Origin: Streptacidiphilus jiangxiensis
Lineage (GTDB): Bacteria > Actinomycetota > Actinomycetes > Streptomycetales > Streptomycetaceae
NCBI RefSeq assembly: GCF_900109465.1
Contig: NZ_FOAZ01000004.1
Span: forward strand, 62,001 to 126,000
Direction: 5' to 3'
DNA: 64,000 bases
Each line of letters opens with the position of its first letter. The first letter of the stretch is position 1. Of the stretch, positions 24,932-34,619 are shown piece by piece. A model generated the notes under the pieces. It did no database searches, had not been told where the DNA came from, and saw nothing but the letters and a program-made list of their open reading frames with translations. A program made the position numbers and the translations under genes.

Positions 24932-26245
<1,314 letters not shown>

Positions 26246-26259
26246 AGGGAGAGGACCCC

Positions 26260-27516
26260 ATGACGACACCCACCGTTCCACAGGCCCGGAGAGTCGGGCA
26301 ACTGCCCTCGCTCACCGGGCTGCGATTCCTCTGCGCACTGTCCGTCTTCTTCACCCACGCCTGGTTCGTGGCGGACATCTTCGCCGGTGCCCATGCGCAG
26401 CAGGCGGTCAAGGCCGTGCTGCCGCTCGGCATGGTCGGCGTCTCGGTGTTCTTCGTGCTGAGCGGGTTCGTGCTCACCCTGACCGCCCCCGCGCAGGAGT
26501 CCGCCCGGCTCTTCTGGCGGCGTCGCGCGGCCAAGATCTACCCCAACCACCTGGTGGTCTGGGCGCTGCTGCTGGTCTTCGTCCTCGCCACCGGCCAGGC
26601 CGTGACCGGCGGCAAGGGCGGCGCCTTCCCCTGGCTGCCGGCCCTTTCGAACCTCCTCCTGGTCCACGCCTGGCTGCCCGGGCCCGGCTTCACCGCGGGC
26701 CTGAACATCGTCACCTGGTCCCTGTGCGTCGAGGTGTTCTGCTACCTCATGTTCCCCTGGCTGCTGCCGAGGATCCGCAGGATCCCCGCGGCCCGGCTGT
26801 GGATCGCCGCCGGGGCCACCGTGCTCGTGGTCTGGTCCGTGGCCGCGATCGCGGCGCAGTTCACCGGCGGCCGCACGGTGCCGGGGGTCGGCGTCAACCA
26901 GTGGCAGTTCTGGATCCCCTACTTCTTCCCGCTGGGCCGCCTGCCCGAGTTCGTGCTCGGCATGCTGCTCGCCCGGATCCTGAGGGAGCGTCGGGTGCGC
27001 GTGCCCGGCATGGCCCTGTCCGGTCTCGCCGTCGTGCTCGCGCTCGGAGCGGCCCTGCCGGTGCTGCCCTTCGCCTTCCTGCCGGCGGCCGTGACCGTCG
27101 TCCCCGTCGGCGCGCTCGTCCTGGCGGCGGCCCGCGCGGACCTGGAGGGCCGGCGCTCCTGGCTGCGGCGCCCAGGCCTGGTGCTGCTGGGCGAGGCCTC
27201 TTTCGCCTTCTACGTCGTGCACTGGCCGGTGATCATGGTGGCGCACTGGGCCGTCGGCGGAGGCCGCTGGTCAACGCCGGTCGCCCTGGCCGCCACCGGC
27301 GGCTTCTTCGTCCTGGCCCAGCTCGTCGCCCTGGCACTGCACCGCGGCGTGGAACTGCCCGCGATGGCCCGCTTCGCCCGCCCGCGCCCGCGCCCGCACC
27401 TTGCGGTGGCGGCGACGGCAGCGGCAACGGCGACGGCGACGGCGACGGCCGGGACGCAGGCAGCGCCCGTCGCCGAGGTCCGGGTGCCGGCCGCCGGCGT
27501 CCCGACCCGGAGGTGA
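26260..27516 (+). CDS. Acyltransferase-3 family membrane O-acyltransferase (OafA-like)
   Basis: A 418-residue integral membrane acyltransferase with about ten hydrophobic segments. Family signs are the start LPSLTGLRFLCALSVFFTHA with its essential His, the cytoplasmic loop RRRAAKIYPNH, and the late FAFYVVHWPVIM segment. It would move an acyl group onto a hydroxyl of a sugar, terpenoid or polyketide at the membrane. The C-terminus after the last membrane span is an Ala/Thr-rich low-complexity tail (ATAAATATATATAG). The ATG at 26260 follows AAGGGAGAGG. Neighbours suggest acylation of a meroterpenoid. Acyl donor and acceptor are not deducible. Confidence 0.85.
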   Translation: MTTPTVPQARRVGQLPSLTGLRFLCALSVFFTHAWFVADIFAGAHAQQAVKAVLPLGMVGVSVFFVLSGFVLTLTAPAQESARLFWRRRAAKIYPNHLVVWALLLVFVLATGQAVTGGKGGAFPWLPALSNLLLVHAWLPGPGFTAGLNIVTWSLCVEVFCYLMFPWLLPRIRRIPAARLWIAAGATVLVVWSVAAIAAQFTGGRTVPGVGVNQWQFWIPYFFPLGRLPEFVLGMLLARILRERRVRVPGMALSGLAVVLALGAALPVLPFAFLPAAVTVVPVGALVLAAARADLEGRRSWLRRPGLVLLGEASFAFYVVHWPVIMVAHWAVGGGRWSTPVALAATGGFFVLAQLVALALHRGVELPAMARFARPRPRPHLAVAATAAATATATATAGTQAAPVAEVRVPAAGVPTRR

Positions 27517-27519
27517 CCG

Positions 27520-28665
27520 GTGAGCGGCACCCTGCCCCGCACCTCCCCGCCACCCGTCGTCCGGCCATACGTCCCGGCACCTGTCGTCCCGGCACCGGCT
27601 CCCCCGCCGGCCGAACGTCGCCTGCTCGCCTTCGTCCGGCTCGGCCGCCCCAAGTTCCTGGTGCAGAGCCTGATGGTGGTCGGCCTCGGCGTCACCATGG
27701 CGGTCCGTGACGGGCACCCGTTCCGGCCCGGGTGGTTCCTGCTGACCCTCGGCTTCGCCTGGTGCACGCACCTGATGACCCACTACTGCAACGAGTACTT
27801 CGACCTGGAGGCGGACCGTGCCAACGCCGCGCCGACCTCCTGGACCGGAGGCAGCCGGATCCTGGTCAGCGGGCAACTCCAGCCCGAGGTGAGCCTGTCG
27901 GCGGCGTTCGTCCTGGCCTTCGTCGCCCTGGGCCTGATCGCGCTGATGCCAGGAACCGAGGCCCGGCTGACCGCGGCCGCCATCGCCACCCTCGCCTGGT
28001 TCTACACCGCGCCGCCGCTGCGCCTGAACTACCGGGCGCTGGGGGAGCTCGCCTGCGCCGTCGTCCTCTACGGCCTCGGTCCGCTGCTGGCCTGCCTGCT
28101 CCAGGCGGACCGGCTCACCGCCGACGACGTGGTCGGCGCCGGCCTGGTCTGCACCCTGCAGTTCCTGCGCATGTCCGTGATGAACCTGTCCGACATCGAC
28201 GGTGACCGGGCCACCGGCAAGCGCACGCTGGCCGTCGCGCTCGGCGAGCGCCGCCTGGTCGCGGTGTACTGCCTCGGTCAACTGCTTGCCCCTGCAGTCC
28301 TGCTGACGGCCTGGGCGCTGAGCCGGGCGCTGCTGCCGGACCTGCTGGCCGTCGCGGTGACCGCCCCGGTCGCCGCCTGGGTCGCCCGGGAGCTGCTGCT
28401 CGGCCGGCTCCGCGACCCGGCGCGGGCCAACGCCATCACCTTCCGCGCCTCCATGCACATGCCGCTGACCGCGTGCGCGCTCACGCTGGCCCTGCTCGGT
28501 GACGCGCTCACCGGTCCGCACGGCGTCCCGGTCTCCTGGCTCGCCGTCTACGGCATCGCGCTGGCGGGTTTCTGGACCTGGCTCGGCCGGGCGGTCCGCG
28601 CCAACGGCGTCGCCGCCCACGGCGTTCCCGCCGACCCACCGACGACGCAGGAGGATCCGCGATGA
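27520..28665 (+). CDS. UbiA/MenA-family membrane prenyltransferase
   Basis: A 381-residue membrane prenyltransferase that joins a polyprenyl diphosphate to an aromatic acid, often with loss of the carboxylate. Both magnesium-diphosphate motifs are visible: NEYFDLEAD (residues 91-99) and NLSDIDGDRATGKRTLAV (from 222). The loop TGGSRILVSGQL after the first motif resembles MenA, which uses dihydroxynaphthoate, more than 4-hydroxybenzoate-specific UbiA. About nine membrane spans follow a 35-residue Pro-rich leader. Homogentisate from the preceding dioxygenase is the simplest acceptor; a carboxylated polyketide is possible. The GTG at 27520 has CCGGAGGTG upstream and lies 3 bases after the acyltransferase stop. 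The stop overlaps the prenyl-synthase start (ATGA). Confidence 0.9.
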   Translation: MSGTLPRTSPPPVVRPYVPAPVVPAPAPPPAERRLLAFVRLGRPKFLVQSLMVVGLGVTMAVRDGHPFRPGWFLLTLGFAWCTHLMTHYCNEYFDLEADRANAAPTSWTGGSRILVSGQLQPEVSLSAAFVLAFVALGLIALMPGTEARLTAAAIATLAWFYTAPPLRLNYRALGELACAVVLYGLGPLLACLLQADRLTADDVVGAGLVCTLQFLRMSVMNLSDIDGDRATGKRTLAVALGERRLVAVYCLGQLLAPAVLLTAWALSRALLPDLLAVAVTAPVAAWVARELLLGRLRDPARANAITFRASMHMPLTACALTLALLGDALTGPHGVPVSWLAVYGIALAGFWTWLGRAVRANGVAAHGVPADPPTTQEDPR

Positions 28666-29732
28666 CCACGACCGTGCAACCCGCGTCCCCGCCCGCGTCC
28701 ACCCGGGCGCTCGCGGCCGACCTGACCGGTCGGGCGCGGGACCTGGTCGAGCCGTACCTGCGCGAGTCGGTGGCCCTGCTGGAGCCCGGCCTCGCCGCCA
28801 TCTGCGGCTACCACCTGGGCTGGACGGGCCCGGACGGCTCACCGGCCGTTCCCGCCGTCCCGGCGGGCAAGGCCGTGCGTCCCGCCTTCGCCCTGCTGGC
28901 CGCCGAGGCCGTCTGCGGATCGGTCCGCCACGCGGCCCCGGCCGGCGCGGCCGTCGAGCTGATCCACAACTTCAGCCTGATCCACGACGACATCATGGAC
29001 CGCGACGAGGAGCGTCGTCGTCGCCCCACCGTGTGGAAGCAGTTCGGCGTGCCCGCGGCCATCCTGGCCGGCGACGCCCTGCAGACGCTGGCCTTCGACG
29101 TCCTGCTGCGCCACGGCGGTCGCCGTGGCCCGCAGGCGGCCGAGCGCCTGGCGGACTCGCTGCGCGAGCTGGTCGACGGGCAGGCGCGGGACCTGTGCTT
29201 CGCCGAGCGCCCGTGGACCGGTCCGGAGGCGGTCACCGTCGAGGAGTACCGCGCCATGGCCCTCGGCAAGACGGGAAGCCTGCTGGCCTGTGCCTCCGGG
29301 CTGGGCGCCCTGCTCGGCGGCGGCACCGCGCTGCAGGCCGCCACGCTCGCCGAGGCCGCGGGCCAACTGGGCCTGGCCTTCCAGTGCGTGGACGACATCC
29401 TCGGCATCTGGGGCGATCCGGCGCTGACCGGCAAGCCGGCCCGTGGCGACCTGCGGGAACGCAAGCGCAGCCTGCCGGTGCTCGCCGTGCTCTCCGGCGC
29501 CGATGCCCCGGCCCGCCACCTCGCCGACCTGCTGACCGCCGAGCCCGGCGAGGCGGAGCTGCTGGTCGCGGCGGACCTCATCGAGGAGCAGGGCGGCCGC
29601 GCCCTGTGCGAACACGAGGCCACCACGGCCCTCGCCCGCGCCCACGCGCTCCTCGACCGAGTCGCCATGCCCGCCTCCACCCGCGCCGGCTACGCGGCCC
29701 TCGCCGCCGCCTGCGTCGCCCGCACGAGCTGA
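28662..29732 (+). CDS. Short-chain polyprenyl diphosphate synthase (FPP/GGPP-type)
   Basis: A 356-residue trans-prenyl diphosphate synthase that builds the chain used by the adjacent prenyltransferase. It has the GKAVRP substrate loop, first aspartate-rich motif DDIMD (from residue 109) and QCVDDILGIWGD as the second. The last Asp of the second DDxxD is Gly (DDILG), a form I associate with actinomycete GGPP synthases of this branch. Phe at position -5 from the first motif points to a short product (C15-C20) rather than a long quinone chain. The start overlaps the prenyltransferase stop by 4 bases. C20 is my best guess; only assay will tell. Confidence 0.88.
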   Translation: MTTTVQPASPPASTRALAADLTGRARDLVEPYLRESVALLEPGLAAICGYHLGWTGPDGSPAVPAVPAGKAVRPAFALLAAEAVCGSVRHAAPAGAAVELIHNFSLIHDDIMDRDEERRRRPTVWKQFGVPAAILAGDALQTLAFDVLLRHGGRRGPQAAERLADSLRELVDGQARDLCFAERPWTGPEAVTVEEYRAMALGKTGSLLACASGLGALLGGGTALQAATLAEAAGQLGLAFQCVDDILGIWGDPALTGKPARGDLRERKRSLPVLAVLSGADAPARHLADLLTAEPGEAELLVAADLIEEQGGRALCEHEATTALARAHALLDRVAMPASTRAGYAALAAACVARTS

Positions 29733-29810
29733 GCCCTCCGGGGCCCTCGGGGGGTGTTCCGTCCCGTTCGCTCCGGATCACCTGCGACGAGTCCTCAGGG
29801 AGGGCCTCTC

Positions 29811-31565
29811 ATGACCACTGTTCAGAACGGCCTGCCGCGCCCTGGGCGCGTCGAGCCCGAGCGGGCTGCGTCGACGACGGCCGACGCCGTCAGCGCGGCG
29901 AGCGGGCGGCTGCTGGCACTGCAGCGCGAGGACGGGTCCTGGGACAACCCGCGCCCCGGCGCGGTGTCCGGCGCGGGCGGGGCCGTGCTCGCCTTCGTGC
30001 TCGCCCACGAGTCGGGCGAGCCGGGGGAGCCCGGGGACGTCGCGTTGACCGACCGTGCCTGCGCCTGGCTGCTGCGCGTGCGCCGCAGCGACGGTGGCTG
30101 GGGCACCCTGGACGGCTGCCCCTCCGACGTCGTCGCGACGTCCATGGCGGCGACCGCCCTCGCCCTGTGGAGCCGAAGCCGTCGAGGCTCGGAGCTCCCG
30201 GACGCGGCCGCCGCCGTCAGCGAGGCCCTGGCGTGGCTCGGCGAGCACGGCGGCGTGCCCGGCATCGTCGACCCGACGGTACGTCAACTCTGCGGACTTG
30301 TCCTGGCGGCGGCCGATCTGGCCAGACCCCGGGGACTGCCCGGGGTGCCCGTCGAGGTGGTCCTGCTGCCGGCGCGGCTGCGGCGGCGCGCGCTGTCCTA
30401 CCTGTCGCCGCCGCTCGTCGCACTGGCGCTGCTGCAGCGCCGTTTCGGACACCTCGGCCCGCTGCGCCGGGGCGTGCACCGGCTCGCGCGCCCCGCGGCG
30501 CTCCGGCTGCTCCACGAGGTCACCCGGGCCGAAGGCGGCGTCGGCTCCTTCGGTGGCGACCCGTGGCTCACCGGCCTGGTCACCGCGGCGCTCGCGGTCA
30601 ACGGCGCCGCGCCCGACCTGGTGCGTTCCGGCCTCGCCTACCTGCGTCGCACCGCGCAGCCGGACGGCTCCTGGGCGATGATCCACGGCATGGAGGCCGA
30701 GCGGGTCGAGCTGACCGGCCCCGCCTTCGCCGCCGCCGCGCTGGGCGACGCGGGACACGCCGCCTCCGCGCGGCTGACCACGACGCGCGCCTGGCTCGCC
30801 GACTGCCGGCAGAGCCGACCCTTCCCGCTGTACGACTGCCCGCCCGGCGGCTGGACCTGGTCCGGTGCGAAGGGCTGGCCGAACGTGCTGGACTCACTGG
30901 CGGTCCTGGAGGTGCTGGCCCAGGGTCCCGCCGACGGGCCCGCCCTGACTGAGGGCCTGGCCTGGCTGCGCTCGCGCCAGGACCGTCGCGGCACCTGGAG
31001 CACCTTCGTGCGCAACACGCTGGTGCCGCTCGACGGCCCGTGCCCCTACATCACGGCGAGGGCGTTGCGGCTGCTGTTCCGGACCGGGGTGCCCATCTCC
31101 GATCCGGACTGGAGCCGGGGGCTCCGCGCGCTCTTGAGCCGCCAGCAGGCCGACGGGGGTTTCGAGGCGCTGTGGCACCGAGGGCCGGTTCCGGCCACCG
31201 CCGCCGTCCTGCGGCTGCTGGCCGAGCTCGGCCTCGCCACGACGCCGGCCGCCCGCCGGGCCGCCGCGCGGCTGGTCGCACTGCAGCGACCCGACGGCTC
31301 CTGGTCGACCGAGGACCCGGCCGAGCCCGGCACGGTGGACGAGACGGCCCGGGCGGTCCTCGCCCTCACCGCCCACGGCGCGCACCCGGCCGCCGCGCGC
31401 GGCGAGCGGTGGTTGGTCGACCGGCAGCGGCCCGACGGTTCCTGGGAGCCGGGCCAGACCTGCGTCTACATCCGCGGCCACGTGCACTACAGCGACCATC
31501 TGATGGCCCAGGGCCTGGCGCTGTCGGCCCTCGCCGCCCGGCTCGACACGGAAGCGAGAGTCTGA
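29811..31565 (+). CDS. Squalene-hopene-cyclase-like (class II terpene cyclase) protein with degenerate DxDD
   Basis: A 584-residue protein of the squalene/oxidosqualene cyclase and class II diterpene cyclase superfamily, expected to fold as a double alpha-barrel. QW-type repeats are seen at about residues 37-44 (LQREDGSW), 91-97, 282-288, 389-396, 491-498 (LQRPDGSW) and 538-545. The site of the catalytic DxDD reads PNVLDSLAVL (from 357); compared with PDVDDTAVVV of squalene-hopene cyclase, the general-acid Asp has become Leu and the first Asp Asn. The oxidosqualene DCTAE motif is also absent. It starts at ATG 29811 after CAGGGAGGG and overlaps the following monooxygenase by one base. It may cyclise an epoxidised prenyl-aromatic by another acid, or may have lost cyclase chemistry. 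Confidence 0.82.
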   Translation: MTTVQNGLPRPGRVEPERAASTTADAVSAASGRLLALQREDGSWDNPRPGAVSGAGGAVLAFVLAHESGEPGEPGDVALTDRACAWLLRVRRSDGGWGTLDGCPSDVVATSMAATALALWSRSRRGSELPDAAAAVSEALAWLGEHGGVPGIVDPTVRQLCGLVLAAADLARPRGLPGVPVEVVLLPARLRRRALSYLSPPLVALALLQRRFGHLGPLRRGVHRLARPAALRLLHEVTRAEGGVGSFGGDPWLTGLVTAALAVNGAAPDLVRSGLAYLRRTAQPDGSWAMIHGMEAERVELTGPAFAAAALGDAGHAASARLTTTRAWLADCRQSRPFPLYDCPPGGWTWSGAKGWPNVLDSLAVLEVLAQGPADGPALTEGLAWLRSRQDRRGTWSTFVRNTLVPLDGPCPYITARALRLLFRTGVPISDPDWSRGLRALLSRQQADGGFEALWHRGPVPATAAVLRLLAELGLATTPAARRAAARLVALQRPDGSWSTEDPAEPGTVDETARAVLALTAHGAHPAAARGERWLVDRQRPDGSWEPGQTCVYIRGHVHYSDHLMAQGLALSALAARLDTEARV

Positions 31566-32872
31566 TGCGCGACCTGCCCCCTGCGAACGGGACATGCTGG
31601 GACGTGATCGTCTGTGGTGCGGGCGTGGCCGGACTGTCGGCGGCCCGCGCACTGGAGCTGCTGGGGCTGCGGGTGCTGCTGCTGGAGAAGCAGCGGGTCC
31701 CCGTCGCGATCGCCAAGGGCGAGGTGCTGCAACCCAGTTCACTGGAGGTGCTGCGGGAGTGGGGCGTGCTGCCGCTGCTGCGGCGGCGTGGCGCCGTGCC
31801 GCTGCACGGCCTGGCCGTGCGGGAGCCCGACGGGCGGGCCCTGATGCATTTCGACTACCAGGCCGTGCCCGGCCGCGATCGAGGGCTGCTCTCCCTGGAC
31901 TATCCCGCGATCCTGGACGCCTTCCGCGAGTCCCTGGGGCCCGGCGTCGACACCCGCGCCGGGGTGTTGGTGGACGCGCCCGTCATGGACGGCGACCGGG
32001 TGGTCGGCGTCCACTGCCGCGCGCAGGGCAGGCCTGAGCTCTTCCACGCCCCGCTCGTGATCGCCGCCGACGGTCGGTCCTCCCGGCTGCGCCGGGCGAC
32101 CGCCGTCACCGCCGAACCGAGCGGATACCCCCACCGGTTGCTCTCCTTCGAGCTGCACGCCGCCGGCCCCGAGGGCCAGGAGGTGACCAGCTACCTCAGC
32201 CCGCAGGGACTCCGGCTGCTCTACCCCCTCCCCGACGGCCGGCTCCGCCTCTACGCGCAGGTCCGCCCGGAGGAGCTGCGCGGCGCCGGGCGGGCCGAGT
32301 TGGAGCGCTGGTGCGCCGACGCCGTCGCGGGCACGCCCGCGCTGGCGCCGCTGGCGGCGCCGCTGCGCGCCGCGCTCGGGACCCGGCAACTGCTGACGCT
32401 GTGGCGGTTCACCGCCACGGCGCTCACCGCGCCCGGCCTCGCCCTGATCGGCGAAGCCGCCCACTGCGTCCACCCGATGGCGGCGCAGGGCATGAACACC
32501 GCGATCGCGGACTCGGCGACGCTCGCCCGCTCCCTCGCGGCCTGCCGCCGCGTCACCGGCGCCGCGGACGGCGTGCCGCTGGCCGCTTCGCAGGTGGACC
32601 GGGCCCTCGCCCTCTACGCGGCTGAACGCCGCGACTGGGTGCGGCACATGGACCGGATGAGCCACGACGCCACCCGGCTGGTCACCCAGGTCTCCTGGCC
32701 CGCCCGCGCGCTGGGTCGCCGCGTCCTGCGCCGGATCGACGCCAACCCACGGCTGCGCCACCGCGCCACGGTCAACATGGCGGGCCTGGTGATGGAGCCG
32801 TTCACGGTCCTCGACAGACTCCACCAACTCGGCCTCCCGGACCCCCGGTCCCGCCGAGTCCCGACCAGCTGA
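31565..32872 (+). CDS. UbiH/squalene-epoxidase-like FAD monooxygenase
   Basis: A 435-residue FAD-dependent monooxygenase. It has the dinucleotide fold CGAGVAG near residue 18, the DG motif in AADGRSSRLRR, and the third motif as GEAAHCVHPMAAQGMN, with Glu in place of the usual Asp of GDAAH. It resembles hydroxylases of ubiquinone biosynthesis and prenyl-chain epoxidases. In meroterpenoid pathways such an enzyme oxidises the aromatic head or epoxidises the prenyl tail before cyclisation. The start ATG 31565 overlaps the cyclase stop (TGATG), coupling the two and suggesting they act in sequence. The C-terminus is Arg/Pro-rich without a membrane anchor. Confidence 0.85.
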   Translation: MRDLPPANGTCWDVIVCGAGVAGLSAARALELLGLRVLLLEKQRVPVAIAKGEVLQPSSLEVLREWGVLPLLRRRGAVPLHGLAVREPDGRALMHFDYQAVPGRDRGLLSLDYPAILDAFRESLGPGVDTRAGVLVDAPVMDGDRVVGVHCRAQGRPELFHAPLVIAADGRSSRLRRATAVTAEPSGYPHRLLSFELHAAGPEGQEVTSYLSPQGLRLLYPLPDGRLRLYAQVRPEELRGAGRAELERWCADAVAGTPALAPLAAPLRAALGTRQLLTLWRFTATALTAPGLALIGEAAHCVHPMAAQGMNTAIADSATLARSLAACRRVTGAADGVPLAASQVDRALALYAAERRDWVRHMDRMSHDATRLVTQVSWPARALGRRVLRRIDANPRLRHRATVNMAGLVMEPFTVLDRLHQLGLPDPRSRRVPTS

Positions 32873-32885
32873 CCCCCCTGCACCC

Positions 32886-32902
32886 CGGGTGCTTCGCACC
32901 CG
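32886..32902 (+). terminator. Small GC hairpin after the monooxygenase gene
   Basis: CGGGTGC and GCACCCG pair exactly around TTC, 14 bases after the stop. It is short and lacks a T-tract, so termination is plausible rather than certain. Confidence 0.5.
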
Positions 32903-33094
32903 TGCCCGCGCGCTGCGCCGGTGACCGCGCGCACCAACGCGCGCACCCGTCGCCACGCGTTGCGCCCGTCACCGTCCGCACCCGTGACCGCGCGCTGCGC
33001 CCGTCCCCATGCGCTGCGCCCGTGATCACCCGCCACGCCAGTCATCACCGGTCACCACGCGCTGCACCCGTCATGACCCGCCGCGCACCTCATC
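32903..33094 (+). repeat. Degenerate GC-rich repeat tract in the 250-base gap
   Basis: Variants of GCGCTGCGCCCGT recur at 32910, 32957, 32992, 33011 and 33059, interspersed with CACCCGTCACC-like blocks. Spacing is irregular (19-48 bases), so this is not a CRISPR. No convincing protein is encoded. Nothing else is seen in the gap except a ribosome site AGGAAAGGAAGG before 33123. Confidence 0.6.
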
Positions 33095-33122
33095 ACCCGT
33101 CACCAGGAAAGGAAGGTCGACC

Positions 33123-34619
33123 ATGACCGGAACCGGCCACGCCGTCGTGCTCGGCGCAGGCTTCGCCGGGCTGCTGGCCGCCGCCGCGCTTGCGGACCAC
33201 GCCGAGCGGGTCACCCTGGTGGAGCGGGACGTGCTCCCGGCACAGCCCCCCTGGCCGGCGGGCCCGTTCTGCGGGGTGCCGCAGGCGCGACACGGGCACC
33301 TGCTGCTCCAGTCGGGCGCCACCGCGCTCGAGCGGCTGCTGCCGGGCTTCACCGCCGAGCTGTCGCAGGCGGGAGCACGGCGGCTCGCCATGCCGGGGGA
33401 CCTGCTCGCGCTCACCGCCGCCGGCTGGCTGCCGCGGACCGGGGAGGCGTCCCACGCCTGGAGCCTCAGCCGGAACCTGCTGGACTCCCTGGTCCGCACC
33501 CGGACGCTGCGGCGGCCGGCCGTCACCGTCCTCGCGCGGACCCGCGCCACCGGGCTCGTCGGTGACGCCCGCCGGGTCACAGGCGTGCGGCTGCGCTCGC
33601 TCGACGCCGGGACGGACCGCACCCTCGCCGCCGACCTCGTCGTCGACGCGACCGGCCGCGGCTCCGCCGCGCCGCGCTGGCTGGAGGAGCTGGGTCTCAC
33701 CCCGCCGACCGAGGAGCGGGTCGACTGCGGGCTCGTCTACGCCACGCAGCTGGTCCAGCCACCCGAGCCGCTCGCCCACGACTTCCCCAGCGTCTCGGTG
33801 CAGACCGGAGCCGGACACGGGCCCGGACGGTCCGGCGTCGTCTTCCCGATCGAGGACGGCCGCTGGCTGGTCTCCCTGTCCGGCACCCGCGGCGCCGAAC
33901 CGGGCCTCGGCCAGGCCGCCTTCCACGCCTTCGCCCGCGCCCTGCCCTCCCGGCTGCTCGCCGACCTGCTGGAGCTGTCCGAGCCGCTGGACCGGATCCA
34001 CCGCTTCGGCAACACCGCCGACCGGCGCCGCCGCTATGACCGGCTGGTACGCGGCAACGGCCACTGGCCCGAGGGCTTCGTGGTCGTCGGCGACGCCGTC
34101 GGCCACACCAATCCCTCCTACGGCCATGGGCTGTCGGTGGCGGCCCTCGGCATCGCCGCATTCGCCGCCGAGCTGGACCGGCGCGGCCTGTGCGCCCCGG
34201 GGCTCGGCCGACGCGTTCAGCAGCGCCTGGCGGTCGCCGGCCGGGCCGCGTGGACCTTCGCCGTCGGCCAGGACCTCCTCTACCCCGGCGTCGTCGGAGC
34301 CTCCCCGACCACCGCCGACCTGCGCGCCGCGCGGCTGGGGGAGCGACTGCACCGGGCCGCGTTCCGGCCCGAGGGGCGCCGGCCCGCGGACGACGCCCTC
34401 CTCGCCGACCTGGTCCGGATCGGCACCCTGACCGCCTCCCCTGCGGCCCTGCTCCGCACCGCCCCCCGCGCCCTGCTGCGTCGCGCCGGGGCCGCCTCCG
34501 CGACCGCCTCCGGCGCCGCCTCCCGAGCCGCGGTCCGGGTGCCGGCCGTCCCCGCGCCACCGCTGACCGCCCACGAGCGCTCGGCCCTCTCCCTGGCCCG
34601 GGCGGTCGCGCCCGTGTGA
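33123..34619 (+). CDS. LasC/Lsd18/MonCI-like flavin epoxidase
   Basis: A 498-residue FAD monooxygenase that looks like polyether epoxidases, which epoxidise alkenes before ring closure. Signs are [13 protein letters not shown], the family phrase [34 protein letters not shown] and [20 protein letters not shown]. In this gene set the likely task is epoxidation of an alkene in the prenyl chain, giving the trigger for cyclisation. A second epoxidation, beside the UbiH-like enzyme, would allow ether-ring formation. The C-terminal ~60 residues are Ala/Arg-rich and perhaps amphipathic. The ATG at 33123 follows AGGAAAGGAAGG. It stands apart from the operon by 250 bases and is the last biosynthetic gene; miaB starts 17 bases after its stop. 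Confidence 0.83.

Follow-up and report, generated by a model that had tools for sequence, protein, structure and literature searches.

A squalene-hopene cyclase-like protein with a displaced acid motif as a candidate epoxide-opening cyclase in a homogentisate-linked gene cluster of Streptacidiphilus jiangxiensis

Analysis of a 64,000-nt stretch of the Streptacidiphilus jiangxiensis genome (hereafter the window, to which all coordinates refer unless stated otherwise) revealed a gene for a class II terpene cyclase of 584 aa resembling squalene-hopene cyclase (SHC; 29811-31565, + strand), in which NVLD stands in place of the catalytic DxDD motif. This change is neither chance nor decay: 60 of the 70 relatives share the underlying state as a fixed feature, against DxDD in 23 of the 23 SHCs aligned alongside. 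The preliminary description overlooked that motif loss extends beyond this protein to a whole family. We consider it likely that the enzyme opens a terminal epoxide on a prenylated ring derived from homogentisate, with D361 serving as the acid. Loss of DxDD would here indicate a shift of the acid by one residue, not lost function.

The cyclase reading frame starts at the ATG at 29811, and both halves of the SHC architecture (Pfam SQHop_cyclase_N and SQHop_cyclase_C) scored above cut-off in its product. The displaced motif reads PNVLDSLAVL (residues 357-366; 30879-30908, + strand), as first described. Its register against SHC was derived from three alignments, namely phmmer with the Alicyclobacillus enzyme, MAFFT with the SHC of the same genome, and profile-profile hhalign, the latter yielding an E-value of 1.4e-42 with a profile of six actinobacterial SHCs. 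All of them equate N358 with D374, L360 with the general acid D376, D361 with D377 and S362 with T378, which bears out the earlier reading that the protonating Asp has become Leu and the first Asp, Asn. Displacement of the acid by a misplaced alignment gap was ruled out, because the three methods place D361 (codon 30891-30893, + strand) on D377. The claim that the acid motif had been lost is thus right for positions 374 and 376 and wrong for the fourth position, where an acid stays. Further along the chain, Arg417 occupies the place of SHC His451. The DCTAE motif of oxidosqualene cyclases (OSCs) is also missing, as had been noted, with LDSLAV at that place. Visual inspection showed about six intact Q..G.W/F repeats (QREDGSW, QPDGSW, QDRRGTW, QQADGGF and QRPDGSW twice), in line with the earlier count, and a further one, RRSDGGW, lacks the Gln. 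The squalene-hopene cyclase model TIGR01507 gave 89.6 bits (range 53-90), below its cut-off of 431, as compared with 780 bits for the genome's own SHC, encoded elsewhere; motif and model scores together rule out a canonical SHC or OSC identity.

Departure from the textbook motif is all that would favor a decayed pseudogene or a sequencing artefact, an explanation to which we assign a negligible probability. Indeed, the 584-aa frame is intact, its stop overlaps the start of the next gene (TGATG), and a relative from a cluster with a 4-hydroxyphenylpyruvate dioxygenase (HPPD) gene, L027 of Streptomyces sp. NRRL F-6131, is 65% identical and carries the same motif. With an open frame and a conserved sequence, decay and artefact were ruled out.

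Structure prediction with AF2 delivered a model (pLDDT 89.3, pTM 0.89), which predicts the class II terpene cyclase fold, that is, two beta-gamma barrels with QW repeats. The best Foldseek match was SHC (3sqc, TM 0.77), along with human OSC (TM 0.72-0.73; 0.72 for 1w6k) and drimenyl diphosphate synthase (TM 0.66-0.70 of the query and up to 0.85 of the target), and TM values of 0.38-0.40 were scored for MstE (6sbb).

To place the motif in its family, relatives were sought at the level of the order and the class, within the genus Amycolatopsis and among GTDB contigs, rendering 70 non-redundant sequences. All are actinobacterial (Streptomyces, Saccharopolyspora, Actinomadura, Actinoplanes, Micromonospora, Amycolatopsis, Kutzneria, Nocardia and other genera) except for one contig labelled Melainabacteria, and the family profile sets SHCs clearly apart (E ~1e-42 versus <1e-120 for relatives). 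Sixty of the 70 lack an acid at position 376, which is L, V or M, and have one at 377 (43 Glu and 17 Asp), a class that we term xxx[DE]. Eight retain a 376 acid (ESED in five, DTDD in two, NTDD in one), and two are acid-free (NSGN). Every SHC examined combines DxDD with His451, a residue that all eight 376-acid relatives retain and 60/60 xxx[DE] members have lost. In a tree rooted by the SHCs, the xxx[DE] members form one clade (100/100), with the 376-acid forms branching outside, and within this clade the 377 residue switched between Asp and Glu more than once, always remaining acidic. The pair made up of the 376 acid and His451 was therefore probably lost once, together with the appearance of two new acidic positions, D250 and D391, while the 377 acid persisted. 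The six HPPD-linked cyclases constitute a 100/100 subclade of their own, with Asp at 377 in four and Glu in the two from Saccharopolyspora (L028 and L029); TAE follows in none of them.

Other members of the family show different solutions. L095 and L096, from two Amycolatopsis-genus genomes (G414 and G431), have NSGN, so that positions 374, 376 and 377 are all without an acid, carry Glu in place of His451, and are flanked by a divergent flavin monooxygenase gene on the opposite strand; a third acid solution and a loss of catalysis are both possible. The five ESED relatives (L062, L067, L094, L097 and L098), in which Glu supplies the acid at 376 and His451 is in place, lack the flavin monooxygenase partner described below and are possibly alkene-protonating cyclases in which Glu replaces the catalytic Asp. 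A further Amycolatopsis-genus genome, G468, encodes four family cyclases (L098, L099, L101 and L110), two of them of the xxx[DE] class, with DTDD and ESED represented once each, and is a good system for comparing acid types.

Which residue donates the proton is the point at which the main competing explanation enters. All 60 xxx[DE] members carry both D250 (codon 30558-30560, + strand) and D391, neither of which occurs in any of the 10 other relatives, a distribution that matches the loss of the 376 acid exactly. They track this loss more strictly than D361 does, and either could be the real acid. Besides, an Asp or Glu at 377 is older and common to SHC, so that it cannot alone account for the switch. 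An epoxide-opening cyclase protonating chiefly through D250, with D391 or the E510/E511 pair, and binding its substrate unlike squalene in SHC, is nevertheless unlikely in our judgment. D250 aligns with SHC Q262 (hhalign) or P263 (MAFFT), residues that we take to lie across the SHC pocket from the acid, at the end where cyclization terminates. D391 sits right after a QW-repeat Gln, which suggests a structural role, and the acid of the related cyclase AtoE is reportedly the Glu at position 377. On these grounds, D361 appears the best candidate acid, whereas D250, besides being its main rival, would best fit a role in cascade termination or head-group binding. The equivalent Asp elsewhere in the pocket, which the preliminary description named as a ground for refutation, is partly supplied by D361, and possibly by D250, as placed by alignment.

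The gene overlapping the cyclase stop encodes FMO1, a flavin monooxygenase matching UbiH-type and squalene epoxidase models (31565-32872, + strand). An FMO1-family gene occurs in the locus of 59 of the 60 xxx[DE] members, mostly <200 bp downstream and on the same strand, as compared with 5/10 of the remaining relatives. Furthermore, a short linker connects cyclase and FMO1 within a single reading frame in L023 (13759-16917 of its own sequence, - strand; same locus as L059) and L024, giving fused proteins of ~1050 aa; an apparent third fusion, L072, was left out of the count on account of masked bases. This conserved epoxidase-like partner, the fusions and the Asp or Glu one residue on all support the early suggestion that an epoxide is opened with another acid. 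Epoxidation by FMO1 is itself predicted from sequence likeness, which is equally strong to ring hydroxylases (UbiH, PqsL), the nearest solved structures being flavin monooxygenases such as 2x3n and VisC. The pairing also has exceptions, in that the two DTDD relatives, L099 and L100, adjoin FMO1, and L026 lacks both the motif and a detectable FMO1. A strict rule equating a nearby epoxidase with motif loss is hence ruled out, and the presence of the epoxidase does not force the loss, because DTDD cyclases also adjoin it.

The intact fold and QW repeats would suit a conventional class II cyclase in which D361 has taken over from D376 and the substrate protonated is still a terminal alkene. We regard this as very unlikely, since the first Asp and His451, which activate the acid in SHC, are both missing, and the clade is nearly always paired with a flavin monooxygenase, a partner that 5/8 relatives with a 376 acid do without. 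The fusions and the tight coupling to FMO1 could instead be read as signs of a cyclase-derived non-catalyst that binds the prenyl chain for FMO1 or acts as its scaffold, and the two NSGN proteins indicate that some family members can do without the motif altogether. On the other hand, the 377 acid, D250, the QW repeats and aromatic residues are conserved over 60 divergent proteins, and no second cyclase was found within the seven-gene cluster, which makes a non-catalytic role highly improbable.

An epoxide-opening cyclase is also in keeping with the content of this cluster, which comprises seven consecutive genes on one strand (25058-34619). The first encodes HPPD (25058-26245, + strand; TIGR01263, 430 bits, cut-off 277; closest PDB entry 1t47, E 2e-175), the predicted source of homogentisate. 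This copy looks dedicated to the cluster, because the genome has another HPPD, 71% identical, on a different contig. It is followed by genes for a membrane acyltransferase (Acyl_transf_3 by Pfam; 26260-27516, + strand; kept in L015, L027 and L030), a MenA-like UbiA-type prenyltransferase recognized by domain models (27520-28665, + strand; 58-69% identical in HPPD-linked relatives) and a polyprenyl diphosphate synthase, also recognized by domain models (28662-29732, + strand), whose product, as judged from family similarity, is probably GGPP. The synthase scored 357 bits with a model of family 2 encapsulin cargo prenyltransferases, whose cut-off is 450. Downstream of the cyclase and FMO1 lies FMO2 (33123-34619, + strand), akin in PDB matches to the polyether epoxidases Lsd18/LasC (E 3.6e-94 over 457 residues) and MonCI (1e-77), within a broad family in which many actinobacterial relatives without a known role are as close or closer. 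The two epoxidase-like neighbors announced by the preliminary description were thus recovered, on the basis of sequence. Lsd18/LasC and MonCI install several epoxides on one chain (PMC12144862, PMC10560226).

Six HPPD-linked clusters were identified in Streptomycetaceae and Saccharopolyspora. The order of the seven genes is identical in L027 and L015; the acyltransferase was not matched in the two Saccharopolyspora clusters (L028 and L029), nor FMO2 in that of S. harbinensis (L030), leaving FMO2 in 5/6. Outside this group, three non-HPPD loci were checked (L036, L057 and L062), and in each of them UbiA immediately precedes the cyclase; a polyprenyl synthase lies near the cyclase in most loci examined, and P450, TauD, aminotransferase or FAA-hydrolase genes surround the cyclase in non-HPPD loci. 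In the window, the cluster is followed by a frame for a MiaB-like tRNA methylthiotransferase. Directly upstream lies a type II polyketide cluster (118-21892) with a ketosynthase-like chain-length factor, a tryptophan-halogenase-like flavoenzyme, two aromatic-ring hydroxylases, a polyketide cyclase and an MFS pump.

From this gene content we infer an acid, substrate, chain length and product for the cyclase along the following lines. HPPD would produce homogentisate, to which UbiA would attach the C20 chain made by the polyprenyl synthase, perhaps with decarboxylation. FMO1 would then epoxidize the terminal alkene of the chain, which would be bound in the SHC-type pocket of the cyclase, where D361 would protonate the epoxide. 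The ensuing cation cascade would form fused rings with a 3-hydroxyl, and D250, on the opposite side of the pocket, may terminate this cascade or anchor the aromatic head as base, water ligand or head-group contact. A possible task of the acyltransferase is to esterify the hydroxyl so formed, and FMO2 may introduce another epoxide. Because a weaker acid suffices to open an epoxide than to protonate an alkene, a lineage tied to an epoxidase could dispense with the D376-His451 pair of SHC. As a more tentative extension, the HPPD-linked subclade might cyclize a chain with at least two epoxides, of which FMO1 would supply one and FMO2 the rest, to a carbocycle/cyclic-ether hybrid meroterpenoid, with the TAE-less motif tuned to that substrate; we think this rather doubtful.

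Collectively, these data depict a shift of the acid that probably happened a single time in a large actinobacterial clade and was accompanied by the loss of the activating His and the gain of a new Asp. They provide a sequence rule for probable epoxide-acting cyclases, that is, no acid at 376, Asp or Glu at 377, no His451, and D250 present. Searches for DxDD would miss cyclases of this type. They also point to an unstudied homogentisate-linked branch with a polyether-epoxidase-like enzyme; our literature search found no homogentisate meroditerpenoid cluster for actinomycetes.

Among known systems, the window cyclase shares with SHC (3sqc/1sqc) the whole fold, the QW repeats and D377, but it lacks D374, D376 and His451 and falls far below the TIGR01507 cut-off. 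With OSC (1w6k) it has in common the fold and, as proposed here, an epoxide substrate; on the other hand, it is devoid of DCTAE, its presumed acid comes one residue later, and a prenylated aromatic would take the place of oxidosqualene. MstE, the merosterolic acid cyclase, is comparable in that it performs class II cyclization of a prenylated hydroxybenzoate, yet is much smaller, at about 367 residues. A close parallel is AtoE, said to carry the motif xxxE314TAE, with the Glu at the 377 position as acid. One of our relatives from an Amycolatopsis-genus genome, L109, falls inside the xxx[DE] clade (100/100) and reads MALETAE, its Glu being residue 314 from its Met. We presume that it may be AtoE, a fit that rests on the residue number and the genus and is consistent with this identity without proving it. 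AtoE is likewise an SHC-like cyclase without DxDD and with a 377 acid, beside UbiA, a polyprenyl synthase and a flavin epoxidase. The kind of cyclase is therefore already known, and the one in the window represents a distinct homogentisate-linked branch of it, with NVLDSLA, that is, Asp for Glu and no TAE, and a cluster that adds HPPD, the acyltransferase and a second, Lsd18-like flavoenzyme. PMC13307353, published in 2026, cites Wang et al. 2024 (Chem. Sci.), which we take to be the work on AtoE of the atolypene pathway, and Alsup et al. 2024 (RSC Chem. Biol. 5:1010) on phenalinolactone, whose title gives sequential prenylation, epoxidation and cyclization, the same order of early steps as we propose here.
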